Below are positions 50,100 through 64,000 of a stretch of 64,000 nt of DNA, in pieces. The stretch's first letter is position 1, and every line of letters begins with the position of its first letter. Source of the stretch: Brumimicrobium aurantiacum. Lineage in GTDB: Bacteria; Bacteroidota; Bacteroidia; Flavobacteriales_D; Crocinitomicaceae. The notes beneath the pieces are model-generated. The model had not been told where the DNA came from. It searched no databases and saw nothing but the letters and a program-made list of their open reading frames with translations. The stretch covers positions 124,001 to 188,000 of the forward strand of contig NZ_QURB01000009.1 in assembly GCF_003402975.1 (NCBI RefSeq), in the 5' to 3' direction. A program made the position numbers and the translations under genes.

Positions 50100-53000
50100 C
50101 TAATTAATTTTAATCATTTTATTGATTTTAGTTGCACCTAATTTTTTCAATAATGCTTGTAATTCATCTATTGATTTTGCATTTGATGGATGATCAATAG
50201 CAAAGAACTCAACCGTAACTTTTTGACTAGATGTATTCATCATTTTGTTTGGAGTAGCATTTAAAATCGCATACATCAGGTCAGCGTTTAGATCATTGAT
50301 GTCGATAACGACTTTTAATTGAATCATACTACTTCCAGCATTTTCTAAAGCTTTATTTCTGAAAGGAGTTTCGGTATCCACAACATTATAAGTGTAGTTA
50401 TAAACCTTCTTAATGTCAAATTCGTCACTGAACTCTGTATTGATTTGATCATTTTCGAATAGGAAACTTTGAATATGTTTGCTCTTTGGGTTGTAATAGA
50501 ACAATTCATTGTATTCATTATACCTGTTCAATTCTTGTGTTGGGAAACTTGAATATTTGTTTTTAGAAACAAGTAATGATTGTGTATTAGCTTCATTAAT
50601 GAAAGGAGCTTGTTTTACTTCTTCGGTCGTTGTATATGTAGATTCTTCAGCAGTATCATCTACTTTATTAGATTGAAGTACAGATTCACCTTCAGATGCT
50701 AAAATTTCGTTTGCTTTAGAAGCAGGAATTCTAACACCATTATAATACGCTACAATATAAGCGTCCGTAATTCCTTTCTTTACAGCCTCTTCTTTCTTAG
50801 GAAGAGCCTCTGAATATGAATTAAACACTCCTGATGAATAACGCAATACTCCGTTTGGAAGTCTTTTTGTAATTAAAGGTGAAATATTCATCAATTGTTC
50901 TGATGTTGCAGGAGTATTGTACACTCCAACTTGAACAGTATAGAAAAGTCCACTTTTATTTTCAACTACATCAGCTTTTGCAGAACCCGCCGAACGGTTA
51001 TAAGCAAGCTCGTCGATTTCTTCATTTTCAGTTTGAGCCTTGTTCGTTATTGTCTCTTCAGCTATTAAATCTTCATCTTTGTTCACCAATGGAGTACATG
51101 CTCCAGATTCTAATAATTGCATAGCACGATAAACAGGAATTCTCTCTCCATCACAGTAGGCCACGATAAATGCATCAGAATAGCCCATGGTTCTAATCTT
51201 ATCTCTCGCAATTTCTGCAGTATTTTTATTTCCAAATAATCCAACTACATATTTAATCCATCCTGATCCAATTTTATCTCCAGAAATAGGGGAGAACTGA
51301 CTGAATGTTGAATTTGGTACAGGCTTTTTAAAGGCTCCGATTTGTACTCTGAATATTAAACCTCCTAAATGATCTTCTACCTTGTTAATTATTTTAACTT
51401 CTCTATTTTCAAGATTCTCTTCGTTTTGATTTTCATTAATAACCAATCCAACTTTTGCAGTCTTCATCACCGCTGATTTTATAGGTAGGTTTTTTATTGG
51501 AGCAACATCTCGTGCAATCATGTTTTCTGTTTTTCTACGCAAGTCTTCGTCTAAAGGTAATGTCTCGGCAACAGCTTCTTGTTTTGCTCTAACATTTTCT
51601 CTTAAAACCTTTACTTCTTCTTTAGTTTTACTGATTGTATTTAACTTCGTTGCAATCTCTTCTTTTTCTTGCCTAGTTAGAGATAAACCATTTTCTACAT
51701 TTTCATAAATGGCCTTTAATTCATCATGTTGAATTTTTAGATCCTCTTCTTTTACCCTTAATTCATGCTGGGCTTGGTTCAGTCGATTGTTGTTCCTTAA
51801 CTGATTTATATATTCCTCTGAGCTTGCAATCTTTACTTCCTCAGCATAGGTTAAGGTGTTTTTCTTTGCTTCTCTTGAAATACCTTTATTCGCATCGTCA
51901 ATTTGCTGTTGTTTCATTTGACTCAATAAAATATTGTTGTCGTAATATTTATTGTCAAGGTCCATTTTTAATTGCTGAAGTTGACTAATATTATATTCGA
52001 TTAATTCAATTTGGTTACTCTTGGCAACAGCTTGTTTGGCTTTTAAACTTGCCAATTGATCTTTTAACTCAGTCAGTTGATCACTAATTTGGCTTTGTTC
52101 TTTTTCAAGTGAGGCTCTCGTTTGAGTAGCATTTGTAGTATTTACATTTGAAATTCTTTGCTCTTCAATAATATCTTCGATAAAGGCGTCTACATTTTGT
52201 TTTCTTCTAATTTGAGTGATTATACCTTCAACTTTTTCCGTCTCTTGATAAATTTCTTGAAGAACTCTTAATTTCTTTTTTGGATCGTTGATAGACTCCA
52301 AATCTTGAATTAAATCATCAACCTTCATCATTGACTGATGACTGTTCAAAGAGTTGATATTCTTTGTATCGCGATTGACGATATTGTTTGATTTTTTAGT
52401 AAGGTTAGGGTATTTTTTAAGTATGGAATTTTCATACCCTTTATTGATTTCGGTTGCAATCTTATCATCTATCTTTTCGATTTTTCGCTGAAACTTGACA
52501 TCATCTTTTAAACTTGGGTCGATTTCAGCTTGACTAATCAATTCATCCTTTTCGTTGAATAAATCATTGATTTTTTCTTTCTCCTTTTTTGTTTGTGATT
52601 TATTCACTTTATCAGGAATAGAAGCTCTTGTTATGTCTAATCCAATTTTATTTTCTGCGATTGATGGTTCTGCTTCTTTTTGTGCTGAAACCAATTCAAC
52701 TTTACTTTCAAGTTCATCTATTTCAGTATTAATGTTATCCTCGATTTCTGTTAAAGTATTCACCTTACTCATTAAGGTAGAAGATGGTGTTTGTTCATTT
52801 TCTAATATAGCTTCAGTTTTAGCATCACCTACTACAATCAAGGCTTGGTACTTTCTCTTGATTAGTTCTTGAGTAGATGCATCTCCATTTTTGATTGCTT
52901 CTTCAATCTCTGTGATGTCATCTAAGTAAGATGGGTCAAGTGTTTTTAATAATGTTTCACTACTTATTTCTTCGGCAATATTCGTTGTATCAACAGTGTT

Positions 53001-56000
53001 TTCAGCGGCTTGATTTGTAGCCAATGCTTCAGTCTCAGCTTGAATTTCTGTTTCTAAAACTGTAATCTCTTCACTTAATGTGTTTTCGATCTCCGTTAAC
53101 TGCTGAACAGCTGTTTGAGTCGCTTGGTTTTCTGGATTGTTTTCAGCGTTAAGAACAGCTTCATTTTTCAATGACTGAACTTTAGCAATGGCTTCTTTTT
53201 TACGCTCTACGATGTCAGACTTTGTAGCAGACCCCTCTTGAAGACTGTTTTCTAAAGCAGCAATTTCAGCTGTATAATTTTCATCAATGTCTTCGATGCT
53301 TTCAAAATTGTTTACAAGCTCAGTGTTAGTGTTTTCAACCTCTTCGGCAATATTCGTTGTATCAACATTGTTTTCAGCTGCTTGGTTCGTAGCCAATGCT
53401 TCAGTTTCAGCTTGAATTTCTGTTTCTAAAACAGTAATCTCTTCACTTAATGTGTTTTCGATCTCCGTTAACTGTTGAACAGCTGTTTGTGCCGCTTGGT
53501 TTTCTGGATTGTTTTCAGCGTTAAGAATTGCTTCATTTTTCAATGACTGAACTTTTGCAATGGCTTCTTTTTTGCGCTCTACGATATCAGATTTTGTAGC
53601 AGACCCCTCTTGAAGACTGTTTTCTAAAGCAGCAATTTCAGCCGTATAGTTTTCATCAATGTCTTCGATGCTTTCAAAATTGTTTACAATCTCACTGTTA
53701 GTGTTTTCAACTTCTTCGGCAATATTCGTTGTATCAACAGTGTTTTCAGCGGCTTGATTTGTAGCCAATGCTTCAGTTTCAGCTTGAATTTCTGTTTCTA
53801 AAACAGTAATCTCTTCACTTAATGTGTTTTCGATCTCCGTTAACTGTTGAACAGCTGTTTGTGCCGCTTGTTTTTCTGGAGCATTTTCAGCGTTTAGAAC
53901 AGCTTCATTTTTCAAGGACTGAACTTTAGCCATGGCTTCTTTTTTACGCTCTACGATGTCAGACTTTGTAGCAGAACCCTCTTGAAGACCGTTTTCTAAA
54001 GCAGCAATTTCAGCCGTATAGTTTTCATCAATGTCTTCGATGCTTTCAAAATTGTTTACAAGCTCATTGTTAGTGTTTTCAACTTCTTCGGCAATATTCG
54101 TTGTATCGACATTGTTTTCAGCGGCTTGATTTGTAGCCAATGCTTCAGTTTCAGCTTGAATTTCTGTTTCTAAAACAGTAATCTCTTCACTTAATGAGTT
54201 TTCGATCTCCGTTAACTGTTGAACAGCTGTTTGAGCCACTTGGTTTTCTGGATTGTTTTCAGCGTTAAAAACAGCTTCATTTTTCAAGGACTGAACTTTA
54301 ACAATGGCTTCTTTTTTACGCTCTACAATATCCGATTTTGTAGCAGACCCCTCTTGAAGACTGTTTTCTAAAGCAGCAATTTCAGCTGCATAATTTTCAT
54401 CAATGTCTTCGATGCTTTCAAAATTGTTTACAAGCTCAGTGTTAGTGTTTTCAACTTCTTCGGCAATCTTTGTTGTATCAACAGTATTTTCAGCTGCTTG
54501 GTTCGTAGCCAATGCTTCACTCTCAGCTTGAATTTCTGTTTCTAAAACAGTAATCTCTTCACTTAATGTGTTTTCGATCTCCGTTAACTGCTGAACAGTT
54601 GTTTGAGCCGCTTGGTTTTCTGGATTGTTTTCAGCGTTAAGAACAGCTTCATTTTTCAATGACTGAACTTTAGCCATGGCTTCTTTTTTACGCTCTACGA
54701 TGTCAGATTTTGTAGCAGACCCCTCTTGAAGACTGTTTTCTAAAGCAGCAATTTCAGCTGCATAATCTTCATCGATGTCTTCGATGCTTTCAAAATTGTT
54801 TACAAGCTCAGTGTTTGTGTTTTCAACTTCTTCGGCAATATTCGTTGTATCGACATTGTTTTCAGCGGCTTGATTTGTAGCCAATGCTTCAGTTTCAGCT
54901 TGAATTTCTGTTTCTAAAACAGTAATCTCTTCACTTAATGAGTTTTCGATCTCCGTTAACTGTTGAACAGCTGTTTGAGCCACTTGGTTTTCTGGATTGT
55001 TTTCAGCGTTAAAAACAGCTTCATTTTTCAAGGACTGAACTTTAACAATGGCTTCTTTTTTACGCTCTACAATATCCGATTTTGTAGCAGAACCTTCTTG
55101 AAGACTGTTTTCTAAAGCAGCAATTTCAGCCGTATAATTTTCATCAATGTCTTCGATGCTTTCAAAATTGTTTACAAGCTCACTGTTATTGTTTTCAACT
55201 TCTTCGGCAATATTCGTTGTATCGACATTGTTTTCAGCGGCTTGATTTGTAGCCAATGCATTTTCTTCGGCTATTTCATTTTCGATCTTAGCAATTTCAC
55301 GGTAAATTACTTTTTCTAGTGAATCTAATTCATCAATTTTTGCTTGATAAGACGATTCGTTTGGATTTTCAGATTGTAGACTTATGTATTCTTCTTTGGT
55401 TTCATCAACTTTTAAGGCTGCTTGATATTTTCTTTTAATCAAAGCGTCTTTTGTTTGATTTCCAGCTTCAATATCGGCTTCAATTTTTTGAATTTCCTTT
55501 TTATAATCGGCCAAAACTTCATCAATTACTGAGCTAGGTGAGTTGTTTTCGGCTATTTCATTGGTTTGAAGTTCATTGTTTTGTTTAGCACTGTCTTGAA
55601 GATTAACCTCAGTGATTTGGTTTTCTACAGTATTTTGATTGTCATTTGTAATTGAATCAACTTCTGTATTTTTACGCTCAGAAAGATCATTATTATTTTC
55701 TGCTAAATTATTGTTGGTAGATTCATTGTTACTTTGTGATTCAACAGCTTCAGTTGTATTTGCAAGCTCATTTTGGAGTTTTTTAAATTCTTCAGCCAAA
55801 TCATGTTCTGAAATTGTGTTTTCAGGCACTGGACTTCTATTAATTTGAGCCAATACACTTTTCTGCTTCTCAATTTCACTTTTTTCCTCAATTTGTTGTT
55901 GCGTATAATTTACTTCATTGTCAAGTGCTTCAATTTTAATCTGAGCCTTACTGATCGCAAAACTTAGATCTTCTTTCTCTCTTTTTGATGCATTTTCATA

Positions 56001-58085
56001 CGCTCGATTGAGTCTAGCAAGTTCATTAGTGGCTTCTTCTTTTTCTTTTGCTAAAGTATTTTTTCTTTTAATCAATTCATCACGTTCTCTTAATTCTTCA
56101 TTGATTACCGATAAATATTCGAAATAAGCATTCGTATTTGTTTGTTCAAGTAATTCTTCACTAACAAAATCTGAATGAGCACTTAAAACGCGTACTAACT
56201 CTACATTGTCTTTTGTGTCAATAGATTTTAGGTCATCGTTTAAGGCTTTAGCTTGATGAAGTAATTGATCTTTTTCCTTATAATCATCTTCTAAAAATGC
56301 CAAAATGACTTGAGCATCCATTAACTCGTTTTTGAGTTTGTTTGAACGGTCAATTTCTTTTTGAGCCATCGCATCCCATTTGCTTTTCTTACTGTTGCTA
56401 GGATCATCTTTACCTAACTGTATTAGAGAATCGGCCTTTTTTATTGCCTTGTTGATGTCTTTATTTCCATTTTGAACAATCAATTTCGATTTGCTAAGTA
56501 AGGAATCGGTACTGGTTTGTCTTTTGTATAGGTCTTTGTATTTTGTTGTAATTAAATCACGAATTTCAACGTTAGTATATTGAGCTAAACCAATTTTTTC
56601 GAATATTTTCTTTTGTTCTTTTATTTTATTCAGTGAATCCAGGTTGTATTGATTACTGTTGACATTCATTTTGGCTTGTTTCTCAATCGCCTCTGCAATA
56701 ATTTCATCGTAATTATCGAACTTCTCATTGAATAGACTATTAAACACAACTACATTTTCCCCTTCTTTATCAATTTCAGTCATATTCAACTTTAAAGGTC
56801 TGAAGTTTTCTAATTCAGGAATTTTGATTGTTTCACTGTGTTCTTTAGTTTCAGACTTTAAGGTTACCACAAAGTTATAATCTCCACTTTTAGGTAGATT
56901 GATGATGTATTCACCTCTTGAATCTGAAGTGAAAAGTCCCATTAAGTCCTCATCTTGATCGTAAACTTTAATTGAAATATTTTTATGTGTCGGATTAACG
57001 ATTGAATTAAACTTACCCTTTAGGACAATCATTTCCATAGGCATTTTTTCAACGCGAACTTTGTAAACATGGATGTTATCCAATTCACTTTCCCTTTGAG
57101 AAGAGAAATAAGCATTTTTCTCCAAAGAATCTACGATATAAAGAAAATCATTATCTGGTGAAGAAATGGAAATGTTCATATTTTCAGGTTCCTTAAAAGC
57201 ATTGCTTTTTGGATCAAATTCACTTCTGAATACATCATATCCTCCCATGCTATTATGACCTTCAGAAGAAAAATACAAATATTTTCCATTTGGGTGCATA
57301 TAAGGATAATCTTCATCGTACGGAGTATTGACGTCACCTAAAACCGGACTTTCTTTAGACCATTCACCATTAGAGTTTCGGAATCTGAAGTAGATGTCTT
57401 TTTGTTCTCCATCATCTCCATAACTCGAATAATAAATGTAATCAGAGTTGGCAGGAAAATGTATTAATGGGGTATGATTATTTTTTCGATCTTGTTTACT
57501 TTGGAATTCTTCTGTCACAATTAAACTCCCACCAATATCCTCTAAATCGTAAATTCTAAAGAAGCTTTCCAGATCGATTTTAGTTTTTTCAAGAACAATT
57601 GCTTGTGTAATATCATTGAATTGTGTTTTACCGTTTCTACACATTTCAATTTGTCGATCTACCTTTAGATGTGCTAGTGCTTTGCTCCCTGCTTTTTCTT
57701 TGTAAGTAGTATAATGTTTAATTGCTTTTGAGAAATTGTATGTTAGATGATAAGCTTTTCCCAGGTAATAGTAGGCTTCATTATCAACATTGCTGTTTTT
57801 TTGAACCGAATAGTTGAGGTACTTAAATGCCTCAGTTTTTTTGTTTGCATTATACAGAAGACAAGTTCCATATTTATAGTTATAATTTGGATTTCTTGGT
57901 TCTAGTGATAATAATCTCAGAAATAAAGGGGTTGCTTCAAGGAACTCTCCTTTTCTAAAATGAGTTTGAGCCTCTTTATCTAGGTCTTCTTTTGTCTTTT
58001 GAGAAAAGGCAGTATTTCCGACGAATATTAATAATAAGAGCATGAATATAAGGTTTGCTCTCATGGATGCAAAGTTTGATTTCAT
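50100..58085 (-). CDS. Giant exported PorE-like protein with 124-residue repeats and two SPOR-like domains
   Basis: 2661 residues. In order: signal peptide (1-28); TPR helices (33-135; YKYGTCLLYNANKKTEAF, AYYYLGKAYHL); PD40-type propeller segment (180-340; YIYYSSYGDDGEQKDIYF, YLYFSSEGHNSMGGYDVF); CRD-like sandwich (355-428). Then comes helical, coiled-coil-prone sequence (430-2230) that includes a divergent unit (about 860-943), six near-identical 124-residue units (944-1687) and another divergent unit (1688-1800). Two SPOR-like domains follow (2242-2325, FRVQIGAF; about 2373-2455, YTVQVGVY), then a C-terminal domain. The N-terminal order matches PorE, a T9SS adaptor whose C-terminal OmpA domain binds peptidoglycan; here SPOR-like domains could play that part. 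Last gene after plsY (28 bases). Function inferred only. Confidence 0.85.
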   Translation of the reverse strand: MKSNFASMRANLIFMLLLLIFVGNTAFSQKTKEDLDKEAQTHFRKGEFLEATPLFLRLLSLEPRNPNYNYKYGTCLLYNANKKTEAFKYLNYSVQKNSNVDNEAYYYLGKAYHLTYNFSKAIKHYTTYKEKAGSKALAHLKVDRQIEMCRNGKTQFNDITQAIVLEKTKIDLESFFRIYDLEDIGGSLIVTEEFQSKQDRKNNHTPLIHFPANSDYIYYSSYGDDGEQKDIYFRFRNSNGEWSKESPVLGDVNTPYDEDYPYMHPNGKYLYFSSEGHNSMGGYDVFRSEFDPKSNAFKEPENMNISISSPDNDFLYIVDSLEKNAYFSSQRESELDNIHVYKVRVEKMPMEMIVLKGKFNSIVNPTHKNISIKVYDQDEDLMGLFTSDSRGEYIINLPKSGDYNFVVTLKSETKEHSETIKIPELENFRPLKLNMTEIDKEGENVVVFNSLFNEKFDNYDEIIAEAIEKQAKMNVNSNQYNLDSLNKIKEQKKIFEKIGLAQYTNVEIRDLITTKYKDLYKRQTSTDSLLSKSKLIVQNGNKDINKAIKKADSLIQLGKDDPSNSKKSKWDAMAQKEIDRSNKLKNELMDAQVILAFLEDDYKEKDQLLHQAKALNDDLKSIDTKDNVELVRVLSAHSDFVSEELLEQTNTNAYFEYLSVINEELRERDELIKRKNTLAKEKEEATNELARLNRAYENASKREKEDLSFAISKAQIKIEALDNEVNYTQQQIEEKSEIEKQKSVLAQINRSPVPENTISEHDLAEEFKKLQNELANTTEAVESQSNNESTNNNLAENNNDLSERKNTEVDSITNDNQNTVENQITEVNLQDSAKQNNELQTNEIAENNSPSSVIDEVLADYKKEIQKIEADIEAGNQTKDALIKRKYQAALKVDETKEEYISLQSENPNESSYQAKIDELDSLEKVIYREIAKIENEIAEENALATNQAAENNVDTTNIAEEVENNNSELVNNFESIEDIDENYTAEIAALENSLQEGSATKSDIVERKKEAIVKVQSLKNEAVFNAENNPENQVAQTAVQQLTEIENSLSEEITVLETEIQAETEALATNQAAENNVDTTNIAEEVENTNTELVNNFESIEDIDEDYAAEIAALENSLQEGSATKSDIVERKKEAMAKVQSLKNEAVLNAENNPENQAAQTTVQQLTEIENTLSEEITVLETEIQAESEALATNQAAENTVDTTKIAEEVENTNTELVNNFESIEDIDENYAAEIAALENSLQEGSATKSDIVERKKEAIVKVQSLKNEAVFNAENNPENQVAQTAVQQLTEIENSLSEEITVLETEIQAETEALATNQAAENNVDTTNIAEEVENTNNELVNNFESIEDIDENYTAEIAALENGLQEGSATKSDIVERKKEAMAKVQSLKNEAVLNAENAPEKQAAQTAVQQLTEIENTLSEEITVLETEIQAETEALATNQAAENTVDTTNIAEEVENTNSEIVNNFESIEDIDENYTAEIAALENSLQEGSATKSDIVERKKEAIAKVQSLKNEAILNAENNPENQAAQTAVQQLTEIENTLSEEITVLETEIQAETEALATNQAAENNVDTTNIAEEVENTNTELVNNFESIEDIDENYTAEIAALENSLQEGSATKSDIVERKKEAIAKVQSLKNEAVLNAENNPENQATQTAVQQLTEIENTLSEEITVLETEIQAETEALATNQAAENTVDTTNIAEEISSETLLKTLDPSYLDDITEIEEAIKNGDASTQELIKRKYQALIVVGDAKTEAILENEQTPSSTLMSKVNTLTEIEDNINTEIDELESKVELVSAQKEAEPSIAENKIGLDITRASIPDKVNKSQTKKEKEKINDLFNEKDELISQAEIDPSLKDDVKFQRKIEKIDDKIATEINKGYENSILKKYPNLTKKSNNIVNRDTKNINSLNSHQSMMKVDDLIQDLESINDPKKKLRVLQEIYQETEKVEGIITQIRRKQNVDAFIEDIIEEQRISNVNTTNATQTRASLEKEQSQISDQLTELKDQLASLKAKQAVAKSNQIELIEYNISQLQQLKMDLDNKYYDNNILLSQMKQQQIDDANKGISREAKKNTLTYAEEVKIASSEEYINQLRNNNRLNQAQHELRVKEEDLKIQHDELKAIYENVENGLSLTRQEKEEIATKLNTISKTKEEVKVLRENVRAKQEAVAETLPLDEDLRRKTENMIARDVAPIKNLPIKSAVMKTAKVGLVINENQNEENLENREVKIINKVEDHLGGLIFRVQIGAFKKPVPNSTFSQFSPISGDKIGSGWIKYVVGLFGNKNTAEIARDKIRTMGYSDAFIVAYCDGERIPVYRAMQLLESGACTPLVNKDEDLIAEETITNKAQTENEEIDELAYNRSAGSAKADVVENKSGLFYTVQVGVYNTPATSEQLMNISPLITKRLPNGVLRYSSGVFNSYSEALPKKEEAVKKGITDAYIVAYYNGVRIPASKANEILASEGESVLQSNKVDDTAEESTYTTTEEVKQAPFINEANTQSLLVSKNKYSSFPTQELNRYNEYNELFYYNPKSKHIQSFLFENDQINTEFSDEFDIKKVYNYTYNVVDTETPFRNKALENAGSSMIQLKVVIDINDLNADLMYAILNATPNKMMNTSSQKVTVEFFAIDHPSNAKSIDELQALLKKLGATKINKMIKIN
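52968..55256 (-). repeat. Six exact-length 372-bp tandem repeats inside the giant gene
   Basis: The word GTAGCCAATGC recurs at 53017, 53389, 53761, 54133, 54505, 54877 and 55249, always 372 bases apart with no indel. In reading frame the six units are 54885-55256, 54513-54884, 54141-54512, 53769-54140, 53397-53768 and 53025-53396, followed by a 57-base partial copy to 52968. Each encodes 124 residues beginning LATNQAAEN. Units are nearly identical in DNA as well as protein, so they are recently amplified or homogenised. Confidence 0.95.
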
Positions 58086-58113: not shown

Positions 58114-58734
58114 CTATTTCTTAAAAAGGTTCATTTTATTTTCATTTCCCTTAATAAGTCTTTTGATATTTTGGTGATGCAAAATAACAACAGCGGATGA
58201 TAAAACAATACTAAAAATTTTTAGTGACAAGTTTTCATTTGAAAAAGCAAATTCAACCAAAAGTGGGAAAGCAACTGATGCGACAATGGCTCCCAACGAA
58301 ACATAATTAAATAGAATGAAAACAATCAAAAATAATACTATACAGATGATTGCTGCCGGTGGGTGAACCCCCAGAATAACCCCTAATGAAGTTGCAACAC
58401 CTTTACCTCCTTTAAACCTAGCGTATAAAGGAAATATATGACCTAATACAACAAACACACCGGAAATGATTTTTAAGTGAATTAAATGGTCATTACTCCA
58501 ATCATAATTGTTTATGAAAAATGGAATCATAACTGCTAATACCCCTTTCAAGACATCAACGATTAGTACAAAACGACCGGCTTTTTTACCTAGAACTCTA
58601 AATGTATTTGTTGCCCCCGCATTTTTACTTCCATGCTCCCTTATGTCCAAGTTGAATTTTATTTTACCAACCCAAACTGCTGTAGGAATGGATCCTAGTA
58701 AATAAGCAATAATACCGTAAATTAAATAATCCAT
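58114..58734 (-). CDS. plsY: Glycerol-3-phosphate acyltransferase PlsY
   Basis: 206 residues, about five to seven membrane helices. Uses acyl phosphate to acylate glycerol-3-phosphate, the first step of phospholipid synthesis. Motifs: LLGSIPTAVWVGK, GSKNAGATNTFRVLGKKAG, and GHIFPLYARFKGGKGVATSLGV. Its substrate comes from GpsA, encoded at 34885. It begins six bases after the stop of the 1535-residue gene and precedes the giant gene by 28 bases, so all are probably co-transcribed. Confidence 0.95.
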   Translation of the reverse strand: MDYLIYGIIAYLLGSIPTAVWVGKIKFNLDIREHGSKNAGATNTFRVLGKKAGRFVLIVDVLKGVLAVMIPFFINNYDWSNDHLIHLKIISGVFVVLGHIFPLYARFKGGKGVATSLGVILGVHPPAAIICIVLFLIVFILFNYVSLGAIVASVAFPLLVEFAFSNENLSLKIFSIVLSSAVVILHHQNIKRLIKGNENKMNLFKK

Positions 58735-58740
58735 TCTAAT

Positions 58741-61700
58741 TTATTTAAAAACACGTAAGAACTGACTTTTATAAGCAGAGCTTTTTGTTACGTCATACAT
58801 AAACTTACGTGACTTTTTCTTGTCTGATTTTAATTCTTCAACTGCTGTATTGAAGTCCTTATCGTCAGTTAATATATTCATGATTCCGTCTTTTCTTAAA
58901 TCGTAATCGATGAAATATTGGAATCCACCAGGAACGATCAATAACATACCTAATCGATCTCCCATATTAGACCTTTGTTCTGCAAAAATATTTGTTGCAA
59001 CGTATTTCATTACTGGTTCATTGAATATGTTGACAATGGCAGATTGAGTCGTTGTTGTTTTTAACCCTCTTTGATTGTCTCCTGGTTTAGTATAAGTTGT
59101 TAGTTTCACTCCTGTAATAACAATTGCATCTTCCATTTCTTTTGGAATATTTTTAAATTCTCTCTTTAAAGTGTAATCTGATTTAATCTTATCAGCCGAT
59201 TTTTGGTCTGTCCACTCTACCAATGCTTGTTCCAACGTTGTTGTATTGAAATCGGCATCTTTTAACCCTTTAACCTCAACTATTTTGGAACCAATTTCTC
59301 TAAAGGCTTTTTCTTCAACAGGAGCTCTAAAGGCCATCGTTAAATCCAAATCAGTTTGTTCTGTTTTTGCGTTGTATTTAACAGAACCTATAGATGTTAC
59401 ATCAACTGCACCATAATCCATTCCTAGCGAAATCTTACCATCACCATCTAAAGAGCATGTTTCTGTTTTCAATGAAATATAATTTCCTTTTTCATTTCTG
59501 TTAATCAGTTTTTCTTGACTTGCAATTTCAAATTCTTTTTGGTTAGGATTGTATTGAAGTAGTCCATTTGCAGAGAAAACTTCAGGATCTTCCTCACCAA
59601 TTACTTGACTCAAGAAAGTAGGGTAGAGGTTCACCTCTTCGATATCTTTCGATATTCTCCAACGAATTCCCACTGTAATTTTGTTTCCTTCCAAATCGAC
59701 CATTTCTTCTGCAACTGGAATTTGTATGTTTTCAGGATTAATCGTTGTTTCAAAAGCCATCCAACTTCTTTCAAAGTCAGGACAATTATGATTTACCTTG
59801 GTAGCTCCTTTGAATGTTAAATACGGATTAGCCGCTTTTAGCTTCACATCTCCATAGAAATCAAATTGTTCACTTAAGTGCAGTATACTGTCCTGATTTA
59901 CGCTACCCACAGCTACTGTTTGATAGGTTGTGTCAAGACGTATTTCTGTCAAATGTATGAGTTGCTTTTCGACCCCTTCACGACCGTACTCATAATCTCC
60001 TGTAGCCGTATACGCTCTTCTTGCAGTTACTTCTGCGTCTACATTAATAATTGAATGGTATTTGGTAATAAAGTTGGCAATGATTTTCGCATTTTCAAAC
60101 TTCTCCATTTTTGCATTTTTACGGATAACCACCACCGAACTATCTGGGAAAATTCTAGCATCTGCAATTTCTAGAAATTCTGTATCATAAGCATATATTG
60201 TTCTTTCTTTCAAACTAAACATAGCTTTTGGAGATAAGAATTGTAACGAATCTTGCTTTGGATGAACAGAGAAGAAGTTCGGACCATCGAGATCCATGCC
60301 ACTTTCGATGGCTAAATTGTCTTGTTTCTTCTTTTCTAGGGTCATCTCATCTTGATCCATCAACCATGTAAATTGGTCAATTTCACAGATGTATTGGTTC
60401 ACCGGAAATTCAACAATTGAGATACCTTTATTGGGTCTAAAAACCCCGTTACGTTTTTTAAAGTCTAAAGTACCATTGACATTGTCTGTTTTAAAGGCTA
60501 ATGCATTCTCCGTTAAATCTCCTTTTTTTTTAAAGGAATTGGTTAACTCGAAAGAGGCTTTATCTGTGTTCGTTTGCCACCTTGTGAAATCAAAGTTTTT
60601 AGATTTTATTTTTGCAGCTTTCAAATCAATAGTTCCTCTACCTTTCATTCCTTTTTCATTCAATACAGTAGAACCCTTTAGAGAAGCTTCTCCATCGAAA
60701 AAGTTGATGTTTTCATTGTGAGATCGCGCCTTAAGTGTTTTTTCACGTGGAAGGAAAGTGATAAAAGCATCTGGTCCAACAGCATCAGGGAATTCAACAC
60801 CTGCTTCTTGAGGACGGTTCTCAAATTCTGCTACACCAATCGTTGAATCAGGTAAGAATGTGAAAAGTGATTTTGAAGTTGAGGAAGAATTAATAAAGTT
60901 GATTGTTCCGCCACCTTGTAATCCATTATTTGAAAGTAATATTTTATTCTCGTATCGTGCCTCAGTTCCATAAAACTCGTAACCTTGATCTGGTACATCT
61001 TGAGAGAATCCTAATGAATAATCAGGCATAACTTTTAATTCATCTCTCATTTTTGGGAAAATTCCAGCCGAAGTTAACTCTCCCGGGAATCTTAATTCTT
61101 TTTCATCAAAGGACATTAAACTATCCACTGTGAAAGGATCTATCTCAAAATAGAATCTTTCTTTGTTGTAGGCTCCTAGGTGCAGATCCATTTGGTCGTA
61201 GTACACTCTGGTTTTCTCATTAGAAACCAAAATCGGATAATCGCCATATCCTTTATTTAATCCAGATCTGTTTTTCGTATGGTCAACCAGAATCTCTCCT
61301 TGAAGTCCGTTGATTACAGACTGCAATGGAATGGCGCGTTCTCCATCTTCTTTTCTTAATGGGTTAGCATTAAAATAAGCCATTTCAGAAGCATATATGT
61401 TGAACTTGTTTTTTGCATAATCAAATTCTCCATCATCAACTTTTACCTCCCATTTTCCTGTATTAATCCAACCATCGAAAACAAAATTCCTGTTTTTCTT
61501 AACCAAAACTCTATTGCTGTCAGGAAATATGGTTGTTCTCTTCATATCTGAAATTTTGATAAAGTCAATGGCATTAATATTCATATCCAATGTAACAATA
61601 TCCATAGTTCCATATTCCGATATTTTAGCACGTTCCTTATTTCGTTTATTGACCAATTCTTGATATTTTTTATCACGTCGATTTTGTTCTCCTCCTTGTT

Positions 61701-63348
61701 CTACGCGCATTGGAGCTAAGTCAGAAACAAAAGAGATATTATCATAATCAGTTTTACGTGCTTTAGACTTAACAAAGTGTTCAGTTTTTGGATTCACATA
61801 CACATAATCTCTTTCAGGGTCGTAACTGATAAAACCTAGAGCTGAAAGTTGAAGTAATTTTGGTTTTGCTTGTTGAATGGTTCTGTTTAATGCTGTTGCG
61901 GCTGTACCTTCAGTCATCTCAAATTTATCATACTTATAAGCATAATTGTATAATGAAACCAGAGGGTGTTCAGACTCTAATCCTTGTATTTTCTGATAAA
62001 GACGCTCATCATAATAATCGAATGATTCAAATCTCGCTTTTCTTTGTTGTTCTGAAGTGTTGATGTCATAGCCAAGAATTAATTCACTTTCAGATTTATT
62101 CCAAATAATTTCATCAACATACATATTCAATTTATGAAATGAATTAACGAAAGGTGCTTGAGATATGGCTTCAGTACCACGTTGGAGTTTTAATTGTTGT
62201 TGTTCTCTATTGTAAATGACATCAAGACCTGTATGAGTAATAGAGTCTTTCATCCCTATATACATCACAATTTTTGCCATTTCTGTAGTCATATTGTTCT
62301 TATTCAAACGGACTTGGTCGGAGTGAGTAATTACGTAAGTTTTTCCTTTCTTATAATAAGTTAATTCCGCTTGTTCATCATCATTTCCTACACCAATAAA
62401 TTGATCTCCAGTTAATGAAAAACCTCCTTTATAATCTACTCCATCTACAATGTTATCGATCTCAAATTTTGCCTCATAAGAACTAAATTGAGGATAGGAT
62501 TTAATTCGATCTTCACGATAATTTCCTTTAATAGCCCTGTCAATTATTTTACCTTCTACTAAACCTTCTATGTAGGGTGTTTTTAGTGAAACACTATCAA
62601 TAGATAGATTGGTTGAGCGAAATGAAATCGAAAAATCATTTAACGTAGCAAAGGTTTCTTCTTTTGATAAGCCTGCTTTTTCCCAAGTAAAGGTACCGCC
62701 ATTTCCTTTGAATTTTTGAGAAGTTAAATCAACTTTTCCACTGGTATTTCTAATTATGATAGAATCAGTAAATGGAATGTCTCTTTGACCTCTATTAAAT
62801 GTTCTACAAGATAATGTAGTATTGTTAATTGCTAAAAATGGTCCTTTATCATATGAGAATGAAAAATCATTTCCAGTTAATTCCCACGTGAAATTTGGAT
62901 CAGAAGCGATAACTCCTTCATATAGGAATGATTTTGAAACCTCAAGAAAACCTTCAAGCCTTCTTGTATTTCTATTACTTAAAAGGTCTTCGACAATCGT
63001 TTGCCAGTCATCGAAAACTCCTCCGGTTCTTCCTTTTTGAATTAATGAGTAAACTGCTGTAACGTAGTTGTCTAGGTGTGGGTAAGGAGCTAGGCCTTTT
63101 TCGTCTATCTTTTCAACAGTGCTTTTCATTTGTTGAAAACGTTGTTCAGGAAATTGGCTAGCATCTAAGAGAAGAGGTGAAAGCTCATCATCAATAAATT
63201 CTTTAACCTCTTTTGTACGACCTGCATTCATTTTTCGTGAATATTCTGAAAGGAATTTTTCACGTTCTTCATTGGCTTTATCTTTCTGACTAAAAGTAAA
63301 TGGAATAGAAAATAAAAGCGCTAAGATAAAAATGGAGATCGTTTTCAT
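58741..63348 (-). CDS. Very large exported protein of unknown function
   Basis: 1535 residues with a signal peptide (MKTISIFILALLFSIPFTFSQ). A helical N-terminal part (about 25-160) is followed by a very long strand-rich region with no recognised domain. Short self-similar segments are visible: ISDMKRTTIFPDSNRVLVKKN near 598-618 and IADARIFPDSSVVVIRKNAK near 1060-1080. Repeated strand patterns such as FEIDPFTVDSL and YICEIDQFTWLMD suggest a long beta-solenoid or OstA/LptA-like jelly roll, which I cannot confirm. The C-terminus is basic and lacks a T9SS sorting domain. It lies six bases after prmA and six before plsY. Confidence 0.75.
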   Translation of the reverse strand: MKTISIFILALLFSIPFTFSQKDKANEEREKFLSEYSRKMNAGRTKEVKEFIDDELSPLLLDASQFPEQRFQQMKSTVEKIDEKGLAPYPHLDNYVTAVYSLIQKGRTGGVFDDWQTIVEDLLSNRNTRRLEGFLEVSKSFLYEGVIASDPNFTWELTGNDFSFSYDKGPFLAINNTTLSCRTFNRGQRDIPFTDSIIIRNTSGKVDLTSQKFKGNGGTFTWEKAGLSKEETFATLNDFSISFRSTNLSIDSVSLKTPYIEGLVEGKIIDRAIKGNYREDRIKSYPQFSSYEAKFEIDNIVDGVDYKGGFSLTGDQFIGVGNDDEQAELTYYKKGKTYVITHSDQVRLNKNNMTTEMAKIVMYIGMKDSITHTGLDVIYNREQQQLKLQRGTEAISQAPFVNSFHKLNMYVDEIIWNKSESELILGYDINTSEQQRKARFESFDYYDERLYQKIQGLESEHPLVSLYNYAYKYDKFEMTEGTAATALNRTIQQAKPKLLQLSALGFISYDPERDYVYVNPKTEHFVKSKARKTDYDNISFVSDLAPMRVEQGGEQNRRDKKYQELVNKRNKERAKISEYGTMDIVTLDMNINAIDFIKISDMKRTTIFPDSNRVLVKKNRNFVFDGWINTGKWEVKVDDGEFDYAKNKFNIYASEMAYFNANPLRKEDGERAIPLQSVINGLQGEILVDHTKNRSGLNKGYGDYPILVSNEKTRVYYDQMDLHLGAYNKERFYFEIDPFTVDSLMSFDEKELRFPGELTSAGIFPKMRDELKVMPDYSLGFSQDVPDQGYEFYGTEARYENKILLSNNGLQGGGTINFINSSSTSKSLFTFLPDSTIGVAEFENRPQEAGVEFPDAVGPDAFITFLPREKTLKARSHNENINFFDGEASLKGSTVLNEKGMKGRGTIDLKAAKIKSKNFDFTRWQTNTDKASFELTNSFKKKGDLTENALAFKTDNVNGTLDFKKRNGVFRPNKGISIVEFPVNQYICEIDQFTWLMDQDEMTLEKKKQDNLAIESGMDLDGPNFFSVHPKQDSLQFLSPKAMFSLKERTIYAYDTEFLEIADARIFPDSSVVVIRKNAKMEKFENAKIIANFITKYHSIINVDAEVTARRAYTATGDYEYGREGVEKQLIHLTEIRLDTTYQTVAVGSVNQDSILHLSEQFDFYGDVKLKAANPYLTFKGATKVNHNCPDFERSWMAFETTINPENIQIPVAEEMVDLEGNKITVGIRWRISKDIEEVNLYPTFLSQVIGEEDPEVFSANGLLQYNPNQKEFEIASQEKLINRNEKGNYISLKTETCSLDGDGKISLGMDYGAVDVTSIGSVKYNAKTEQTDLDLTMAFRAPVEEKAFREIGSKIVEVKGLKDADFNTTTLEQALVEWTDQKSADKIKSDYTLKREFKNIPKEMEDAIVITGVKLTTYTKPGDNQRGLKTTTTQSAIVNIFNEPVMKYVATNIFAEQRSNMGDRLGMLLIVPGGFQYFIDYDLRKDGIMNILTDDKDFNTAVEELKSDKKKSRKFMYDVTKSSAYKSQFLRVFK

Positions 63349-63354
63349 AATTAC

Positions 63355-64000
63355 TTATTTTTTTATTAGTTGAATCACCGCCCATGTTTCCTTAGTGAAA
63401 ACTTGTTCAGTTTTAAAATTATATTTTTCAGCATGTGCCGAAAGTTCATCAACATCTGTTTCGAAAAAACCACTCAGGAACACAATTCCGTCTGTTTTGG
63501 TTAATGTAGCATAACTAGGCATGTGCTCTTTAAGTACATTTTTGTTGATGTTAGCAATTAAGATATCAAATTTTTCTTCAGGAACACAACCAATATCTCC
63601 TTTTATAATTTCAAAATTGCTAATGTCGTTTCTTCCACAGTTTTCAATCGCGTTTTCTACTGCGCCTTCCTCAATGTCTGTACCGAAAACTCTTGTCGCT
63701 CCTTTTAAGGAAGCTAGAATACCTAAAACTCCAGTTCCGGTTCCTACATCTAAAACACTTTTCCCTTGAAAGTCAATATCCAATAGGTTTTTACTGAGTA
63801 AATAAGTGGTTTGATGATGACCTGTACCAAAGGACATTTGTGGTTGAATTTCTATAGACATTTTGTATTGCTCCTCTTTTTCGTGAAATGGAGCGCGTAT
63901 GATTAAATCTTGATCAACCGAAACAGGAGCATAATCAGACTCCCAAACTGCATTCCAATTTTGATTTTCGATATGCTCTTTGTGAATCTTGATTTCAACT
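63355..64000 (-). CDS. prmA: Ribosomal protein L11 methyltransferase (5' end beyond window)
   Basis: SAM-dependent trimethylation of ribosomal protein L11. The SAM site is clear: VLDVGTGTGVLGILASLKGA, with MSFGTGHHQTTYLL upstream and DILIANINKNVL downstream (the NPPY-like position). The reading frame continues upstream of the Met at 63861 through NQNWNAVWESDYAPV and DLIIRAPFHE, typical PrmA sequence, to the window edge. The Met at 63861 is therefore internal and the gene is truncated only by the window. It appears to head or join the transcription unit running to the giant protein gene. Confidence 0.94.
   Translation of the reverse strand, partial: VEIKIHKEHIENQNWNAVWESDYAPVSVDQDLIIRAPFHEKEEQYKMSIEIQPQMSFGTGHHQTTYLLSKNLLDIDFQGKSVLDVGTGTGVLGILASLKGATRVFGTDIEEGAVENAIENCGRNDISNFEIIKGDIGCVPEEKFDILIANINKNVLKEHMPSYATLTKTDGIVFLSGFFETDVDELSAHAEKYNFKTEQVFTKETWAVIQLIKK

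Follow-up and report, generated by a model that had tools for sequence, protein, structure and literature searches.

PorE, which is linked to the type IX secretion system (T9SS), binds PorP and peptidoglycan (PMC9143113, PMC7192894). It has been proposed to be a fusion of CpoB, TolB and Pal, to act as a tether between outer membrane and peptidoglycan, and possibly to traffic to the septum (PMC12204202, 2025). The same paper states that Bacteroidetes have no identifiable tol-pal loci and expects further systems that stabilize the outer membrane. Loss of CHU_0125, an outer membrane integrity protein, is described as giving sixfold more outer membrane vesicles (PMC5891637). We analyzed a 64,000-nucleotide stretch of the genome of Brumimicrobium aurantiacum (contig NZ_QURB01000009.1, positions 124,001 to 188,000 of the forward strand) that we call the window. 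One of its genes is predicted to encode a giant exported protein with a PorE-like head at the N-terminus, a long helical middle and SPOR-like modules near the C-terminus. This giant protein is a conserved family in much of one order of marine and freshwater bacteria, here Crocinitomicaceae and relatives. We propose, tentatively and with slightly less than even confidence, that it is a tether of variable length between the outer membrane and peptidoglycan that collects at denuded glycan in the septum and couples the outer membrane to the septal wall.

The open reading frame (ORF) of the giant gene begins with ATG and has 2661 codons for residues with no internal stops. Structural features were taken from two AlphaFold2 models covering residues 28-1190 and 1590-2661, with mean predicted local distance difference test (pLDDT) scores of 83.1 and 82.6, respectively. 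The parts of the gene, in window coordinates with the strand in brackets, are:

50100..58085 (-): whole gene for the exported protein P0001, 2661 amino acids, from the ORF and its orthologs
57999..58085 (-): signal peptide, residues about 1-29, containing no cysteine, judged type I by eye
57612..57992 (-): TPR domain, residues 32-158, from Pfam TPR, the AlphaFold2 model and TPR structures
57003..57608 (-): PD40 beta region (short propeller), residues 160-361, from PF07676, partial matches to NF053607 and NF052230, and the model
56733..56978 (-): CRD-like beta domain, residues 370-451, from the model, a sub-threshold CarboxypepD_reg match and an NF053607 match that runs to residue 455
55728..56573 (-): proximal long helices, residues 505-786, from the model
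52701..55523 (-): eight three-helix modules of about 82 amino acids, from a module model and the AlphaFold2 models
52968..55259 (-): DNA tandem repeat of six near-identical modules, period 372 bp, 6.2 copies, 93% matches
51513..52613 (-): distal long helices, residues 1825-2191, from the model
51114..51362 (-): SPOR-like module 1 (VQIGAF), residues 2242-2324, from PF05036, the model and an alignment
50703..50951 (-): SPOR-like module 2 (VQVGVY), residues 2379-2461, from PF05036, the model and an alignment
50109..50327 (-): C-terminal strand-helix-strand-strand-helix-strand domain, residues 2587-2659, from the fold only

The 80 named loci, which are the best loci for the SPOR tandem in the named collection, come from Brumimicrobium, Fluviicola, Taishania, Crocinitomicaceae, Cryomorphaceae, Vicingaceae and other metagenome-assembled genomes labelled Flavobacteriales, Bacteroidetes or otherwise. 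At 56 of them the head and the SPOR modules are encoded in one ORF, with two modules in 34 ORFs, three in 20, four in one and five in one. The ORF starts at a contig end in 20 of the 24 other loci; in L085 and L111 the ORF contains unread bases, and in L118 and L145 no head is seen. We fetched twenty-five ortholog ORFs from the same genus, family and order, of which the shortest, truncated where its contig stops, has 1,772 residues and the longest has 3,551. The head and SPOR modules are conserved in all of these except the truncated L048, L051 and L067, and the middle varies. Alignment A1 leaves out L050 and L051, where the SPOR modules are far-spaced or cut, and alignment A2 leaves out L048 and L067, where the head is incomplete; alignments A3 and A4 hold 45 of 54 and 44 of 75 candidate rows, respectively. 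Within the order, the SPOR profile matched 108 of 150 genomes at E<=1e-25, a count that includes single-module matches and short ORFs. Across the phylum it matched 23 of 296 genomes at E<=1e-10, and apart from B. aurantiacum itself, G032 (order) and G080 (family), the 20 other genomes have their matches in ORFs of 131-486 residues. For the head, a search of 198 genomes from across the phylum gave two genomes at E<=1e-30.

Alignment of the SPOR tandem showed that all 24 members match PF05036 at E<=0.01. With the window protein the score was 30.8 bits for the tandem and 28.4 bits for the C-terminal 430 amino acids (cut-off 21), both being whole-protein sums in which no single stretch passes the cut-off alone. 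The full-length protein scored 17.0 bits, below the same cut-off, so this score depends on context. Module 1 is modelled as strand, four-residue helix, strand, strand, helix, strand, and module 2 follows this order minus the first helix. The glutamine that we equate by motif with Q270 of RlpA, a residue that contacts glycan (PMC6895207), is present in 24/24 sequences in module 1 and 24/24 in module 2. The presumed R309 position is occupied by a basic residue in 23/24 (lysine in the window protein) and 24/24, respectively. There was no OmpA match in residues 2232-2661, for which Pfam gave SPOR only at E<=0.1. Beyond these two modules, residues 2587-2659 are modelled as a third small alpha-beta domain. 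We considered it as a third SPOR module and dropped this idea; the order of the fold fits, and sequence profiles give no connection. Compared with the third SPOR module of orthologs, the best of the 11 matches listed scored 3.5 bits, the window protein scored 1.5 bits and hhalign gave a probability of 1.8. Foldseek searches with the C-terminal model returned mainly ferredoxin-like folds, none at E<=0.001.

Contig C19 of the same genome encodes an exported N-acetylmuramoyl-L-alanine amidase of the Amidase_3 type (L074:4354-5496 (+)), which ends in a SPOR-like domain. It scored 170.4 bits with Amidase_3, and a model built from the SPOR modules of the giant protein gave 46.7 bits for the whole enzyme (E 2e-14; best domain 44.2 bits). 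With this model the three Pfam-SPOR loci of the genome, two of which are HU-CCDC81 proteins, scored only 10.9, 7.5 and 0.4 bits, suggesting that the kinship between the SPOR domains of the giant protein and the amidase is specific. We then looked at ten more stretches, drawn from nine genomes among the phylum SPOR matches; this selection is not a census. Seven of these, each from a different genome, contain an amidase-SPOR fusion (L172, L173, L174, L175, L178, L179, L180), where the catalytic part was recognized by BLASTP to the B. aurantiacum amidase and checked with Pfam for L175 only. By sequence, the SPOR subfamily thus appears to tie the tail of the giant protein to the pathway of Amidase_3 enzymes, which produces denuded glycan, and we consider this common subfamily a better lead than the T9SS.

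The remaining three stretches encode two SPOR proteins of about 210 amino acids and a barrel-like protein with SPOR modules. The two small proteins (L177:1025-1660 (+) and L176:1488-2117 (-)) are exported, have a coiled-coil-like middle and end in the same SPOR subfamily, and one of the two has a lipobox-like sequence. They may represent the same kind of tether in a shorter form. The barrel-like protein, from genome G032 (L181:1317-3452 (-)), is an exported protein of 712 amino acids with an OprF-type barrel recognized by eye, a thrombospondin-3 stretch and SPOR modules. These modules occupy the usual place of an OmpA domain, and replacement of OmpA by SPOR may have happened repeatedly in this lineage.

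From these results we suggest the following model. The giant protein would be a soluble tether in the periplasm whose length can vary. Its SPOR modules, of which the window protein has two and orthologs have as many as five, would bind glycan strands stripped of stem peptides, and such strands would be made at the division site by the Amidase_3-SPOR enzymes that share this SPOR subfamily. The TPR/PD40/CRD head would bind a partner in the outer membrane or associated with it, for example a PorP-like barrel or the 1535-amino-acid exported protein encoded nearby, and the three-helix modules together with the long helices would set reach and compliance. In this way the outer membrane would be kept coupled to septal peptidoglycan through constriction and separation of the daughter cells. 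A SPOR subfamily common to the giant protein and an amidase would also be expected of a septal scaffold for cell-wall hydrolases, with a role similar to CpoB, EnvC or DipM, where the SPOR modules position the protein and the head acts as a regulator of amidases or synthases. Both TPR and PD40 folds bind proteins, and three-helix repeats have a precedent in cytokinesis with EzrA (PMC4243239). However, nothing links the head to an enzyme and a spacer of 1,800 residues would be odd in a local regulator, so that we regard such a scaffold as very improbable.

We next consider the head of the proposed tether. The signal peptide was recognized by eye (...LLLLIFVGNTAFSQ), and residues 1-45 contain no cysteine and hence no lipobox, indicating that the window protein is not a lipoprotein. 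The model of residues 28-1190 contains, in order, TPR helices, a beta region, a CRD-like domain, long helices and three-helix bundles. Pfam searches with the head alone gave TPR_2 at 27.1 bits (cut-off 27), PD40 (PF07676) at 27.9 bits at residues 252-286 (cut-off 20.9) and CarboxypepD_reg at 15.7 bits, below the cut-off of 32.3. The best structure match of the modelled TPR fold had a Z of 16.6 and a root-mean-square deviation of 2.2 over 119 aligned residues, and on this predicted structure the TPR assignment of residues 32-158 is secure. VIA-align lists were dominated by this domain for the N-terminal model and by the C-terminal domain, and barely covered other parts. In the PD40 region one repeat passed the cut-off and three blades were seen by eye. 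The interval between the TPR and CRD domains is about 200 residues compared with five blades and 269 residues for the propeller of PorE, so the propeller of the head is probably shorter than that of PorE. Foldseek matches to the N-terminal model contain TPR and Ig/CnaB-like domains, with 2 of 605 matches at E<=0.001; none of the 50 matches listed has a propeller title, and two BBSome chains among them may contain one.

A preliminary description of this DNA had proposed a 2661-residue exported protein with TPR, PD40 and CRD-like domains in that order, about 1,800 mostly helical residues and two SPOR-like domains. The order of the head is borne out by Pfam, AlphaFold2 and partial NCBIfam matches, the helical stretch proved to be about 1,790 residues long, and PF05036 and the invariant glutamine agree with the two SPOR-like domains. 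These results do not establish a full propeller.

Among NCBIfam models, the head scores highest with NF053607 (CHU_0125, outer membrane integrity), at 95.7 bits over residues 199-455, far below the cut-off of 620 bits, and the giant protein has no OmpA end. The second is NF052230 (PorE) with 71.9 bits at residues 212-409 (68.5 bits in the genome scan), also far below its cut-off of 600 bits. These matches begin at profile positions 272 (CHU_0125) and 288 (PorE), in the later part of the propeller. A scan with the full-length protein showed neither match and had led us to conclude that the head does not match the PorE model; the matches with the head alone overturned this. The match was missed because the whole protein was scanned, probably as a result of biased composition, and database annotation of such giants may therefore be wrong or empty. 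Kinship with CHU_0125 and PorE at the sequence level, together with the roles of these proteins cited above, makes it plausible that the head is a grip on the outer membrane side.

This partial match to the PorE model raises the alternative that the giant protein is a tether linked to the T9SS or PorP, in which the SPOR modules anchor it to glycan strands while the head holds either the GldK/N ring or a barrel of the PorP kind. PorE itself interacts with both PorP and peptidoglycan (PMC9143113, PMC7192894), and the B. aurantiacum genome has SprA and 7 PorP-family matches. However, the genome also encodes several PorE-like proteins with TPR, PD40 and OmpA domains, none of which reaches the 600-bit cut-off. 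Among the PorP-family matches listed, which include 3 of the 7 from B. aurantiacum, none lies beside the giant gene. All 22 genomes searched for the PorP family had matches. Of 150 genomes of the order, 148 contain SprA, with 108/108 among those that have a SPOR match and 40/42 among those that do not, assuming that both sets of 150 genomes are identical. SprA is thus equally present with and without the giant protein, and this co-occurrence neither supports nor excludes a link to the T9SS. The T9SS is widespread in the phylum, unlike the head with its two genomes. We consider a T9SS-linked tether decidedly unlikely. The nearest PorP-family gene among the matches listed (G026:C1:2743875-2744747) is about 7.5 kb from the giant gene, probably by chance.

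The preliminary description had suggested an alternative tether between the T9SS, or another machine, and glycan strands. A tether to glycan strands fits the SPOR modules with their invariant glutamine, and the tie to the T9SS fares poorly given the coexisting PorE-like proteins and the uninformative distribution of SprA. Because these PorE-like OmpA proteins coexist, we also rejected the idea that the giant protein replaces a lost PorE.

Under the tether model we prefer, reach would be set by the middle. The eight modules of the window protein (residues 855-937, 978-1060, 1102-1184, 1226-1308, 1350-1432, 1474-1556, 1598-1680 and 1714-1795) comprise the tandem array plus two diverged flanking copies. 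Both AlphaFold2 models show three helices per module, with low-confidence linkers between modules that are probably disordered. The module model gave 106 matches in 26 middles (window protein and orthologs). Reversed middles gave none, nor did any of three full shuffles, and shuffling 14-residue blocks three times gave 0, 2 and 0 matches. A simple heptad autocorrelation of the middle showed no clear coiled-coil period. Based on the module model and these shuffle and reversal controls, which show repeated units, we rejected a low-complexity coiled coil lacking units. Pfam contains no family for the module of about 82 residues, and there was no specific structure match among the matches listed. 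The six near-identical copies have a ratio of synonymous to nonsynonymous change (pS/pN) of about 4.8, favoring synonymous change, and by sequence the copies look to be under purifying selection. With 93% likeness between the six 372-bp copies the array appears recently expanded; strain variation or mis-assembly is possible.

Module number per ortholog ranged from 0 (L059, L063, L066) to 15 (L054). When built from just the window copies, the model recognized modules in six further orthologs, each from the genus of the window. The module is absent from G032 although the giant protein is present there. In a search of 148 genomes of the phylum, the module was found in B. aurantiacum (8 copies), with two further matches of 22 and 24 bits, and was not seen outside the order. 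Since many distant orthologs contain few or no modules, the module is typical of the family of the window rather than of the whole order, and its absence from G032, L059 and L066 means that it is not a feature of the entire giant-protein family. Across the 56 ORFs with head and SPOR modules, the spacer from the end of the head profile to the first SPOR module is 891 to 2653 residues long, and module number correlated with the length of the middle (r 0.81), a correlation that is in part by construction. Such variation between orthologs fits the earlier suggestion that the repeats set reach.

Upstream of the giant gene and in the same orientation are three genes:

58114..58734 (-): plsY (glycerol-3-phosphate acyltransferase), upstream neighbor, from PF02660 at 190.5 bits and synteny
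58741..63348 (-): gene for a 1535-amino-acid exported protein, family unassigned, the most constant neighbor, from the ORF, synteny and alignments
63355..63999 (-): prmA (ribosomal protein L11 methyltransferase), with its 5' part beyond the window, from PF06325 at 164.1 bits

The gaps between the giant gene, plsY, the 1535-amino-acid gene and prmA are 28, 6 and 6 bp. The 1535-amino-acid orphan or a fragment of it lies beside the giant gene in 23 of the 25 fetched loci, with plsY between them or not; the exceptions are L048, whose locus runs off the edge of its contig, and L063, which has the orphan on another contig. plsY is at the giant locus in 14 of the 25. The orphan is conserved in the order, with 30-75% identity in 16 aligned relatives, and often follows prmA, and no Pfam or PDB match is worth naming. 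Four genomes from outside the order have it too, with no relative of the head in the fetched flanks, and it is therefore not an obligate partner of the giant protein. Having no informative matches and occurring apart from the head, it was set aside as a functional clue. The cluster of prmA, orphan and plsY is a housekeeping setting. That no division gene is among the conserved neighbors would suit a tether or spacer that is not septal, with glycan bound all around the cell and the helical chain providing distance or elasticity. The anatomy expected of such a protein is identical to that of a septal tether and the number of modules is likewise variable; nonetheless we think this alternative somewhat unlikely.

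Several observations weigh against the septal tether that we favor. We saw no membrane anchor in the window protein, so attachment to the outer membrane is assumed, and the head matches only the later part of the propeller, so the partner of PorE may not be the partner of the giant protein. The neighborhood of the giant gene holds no link to divisome genes, which were not searched for elsewhere. The link between giant protein and amidase depends on a model built from the modules of the giant protein, and the Pfam SPOR model misses the SPOR-like end of both amidases scanned (L074, L175). There were no SPOR chains among the PDB matches listed, where the lists are dominated by other parts of the models. 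Finally, at E<=1e-25 the SPOR profile matched nothing in 42 of the order's 150 genomes, in some perhaps because of assembly gaps, and the giant protein is thus not essential throughout the order.

If the septal tether is correct, the giant protein could be part of an undescribed class of SPOR-based tethers of tunable length, a kind of 'bacterial spectrin', that follows denuded glycan in the septum and does the work of Tol-Pal in outer membrane constriction in a lineage that would lack Tol-Pal, with amidases that have the same SPOR domain supplying the ligand. This broader claim seems unlikely to us. The giant protein is nevertheless a concrete candidate, across much of an order, for what keeps outer membrane and wall attached in dividing Bacteroidota, with no identified tol-pal loci. 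It has a testable ligand in denuded glycan and a partner pathway in the amidase-SPOR enzymes. Its natural series of spacer lengths allows the reach of a tether in the periplasm to be asked about, and it brings a repeat module that is new to Pfam. In searches of the open-licence literature, which does not cover subscription papers, we found no description of the head-spacer-SPOR layout, in agreement with the preliminary description.

Comparison with known systems places the giant protein as follows. FtsN, DamX and RlpA also contain a SPOR domain with the glutamine that contacts glycan. They have one SPOR domain, a membrane or lipid anchor and no TPR/PD40 head. The Amidase_3-SPOR enzymes of Bacteroidota have the same SPOR subfamily, including an end similar to xFVVxxxNGxRI, but are enzymes encoded by ORFs of 330-439 amino acids with a single SPOR domain and neither head nor spacer. 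Tol-Pal consists of separate proteins driven by an inner-membrane motor. Its TPR, propeller and peptidoglycan-binding functions (CpoB, TolB, Pal) would be present in one chain in the giant protein; the analogy with Tol-Pal was proposed for PorE (PMC12204202). EzrA, the 'bacterial spectrin', is a division protein with linear three-helix repeats (PMC4243239), but its domain is cytoplasmic with five repeats, and the likeness may be one of layout only. CHU_0125-type OmpA-like proteins (NF053607) give the best NCBIfam match to the head, whereas the name of that model and the matched B. aurantiacum proteins have an OmpA end and no SPOR tail. PorE (NF052230; PG1058 of P. gingivalis) has the same order of TPR, beta-propeller and CRD followed by a peptidoglycan-binding end; the giant protein differs in having no OmpA domain, no lipobox, a probably shorter propeller that may not be closed, a spacer of about 1,790 residues and a SPOR tandem. 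Thus, the giant protein is akin to peptidoglycan tethers of the PorE and Pal sort, and its SPOR tail and repeat spacer set it apart from them.

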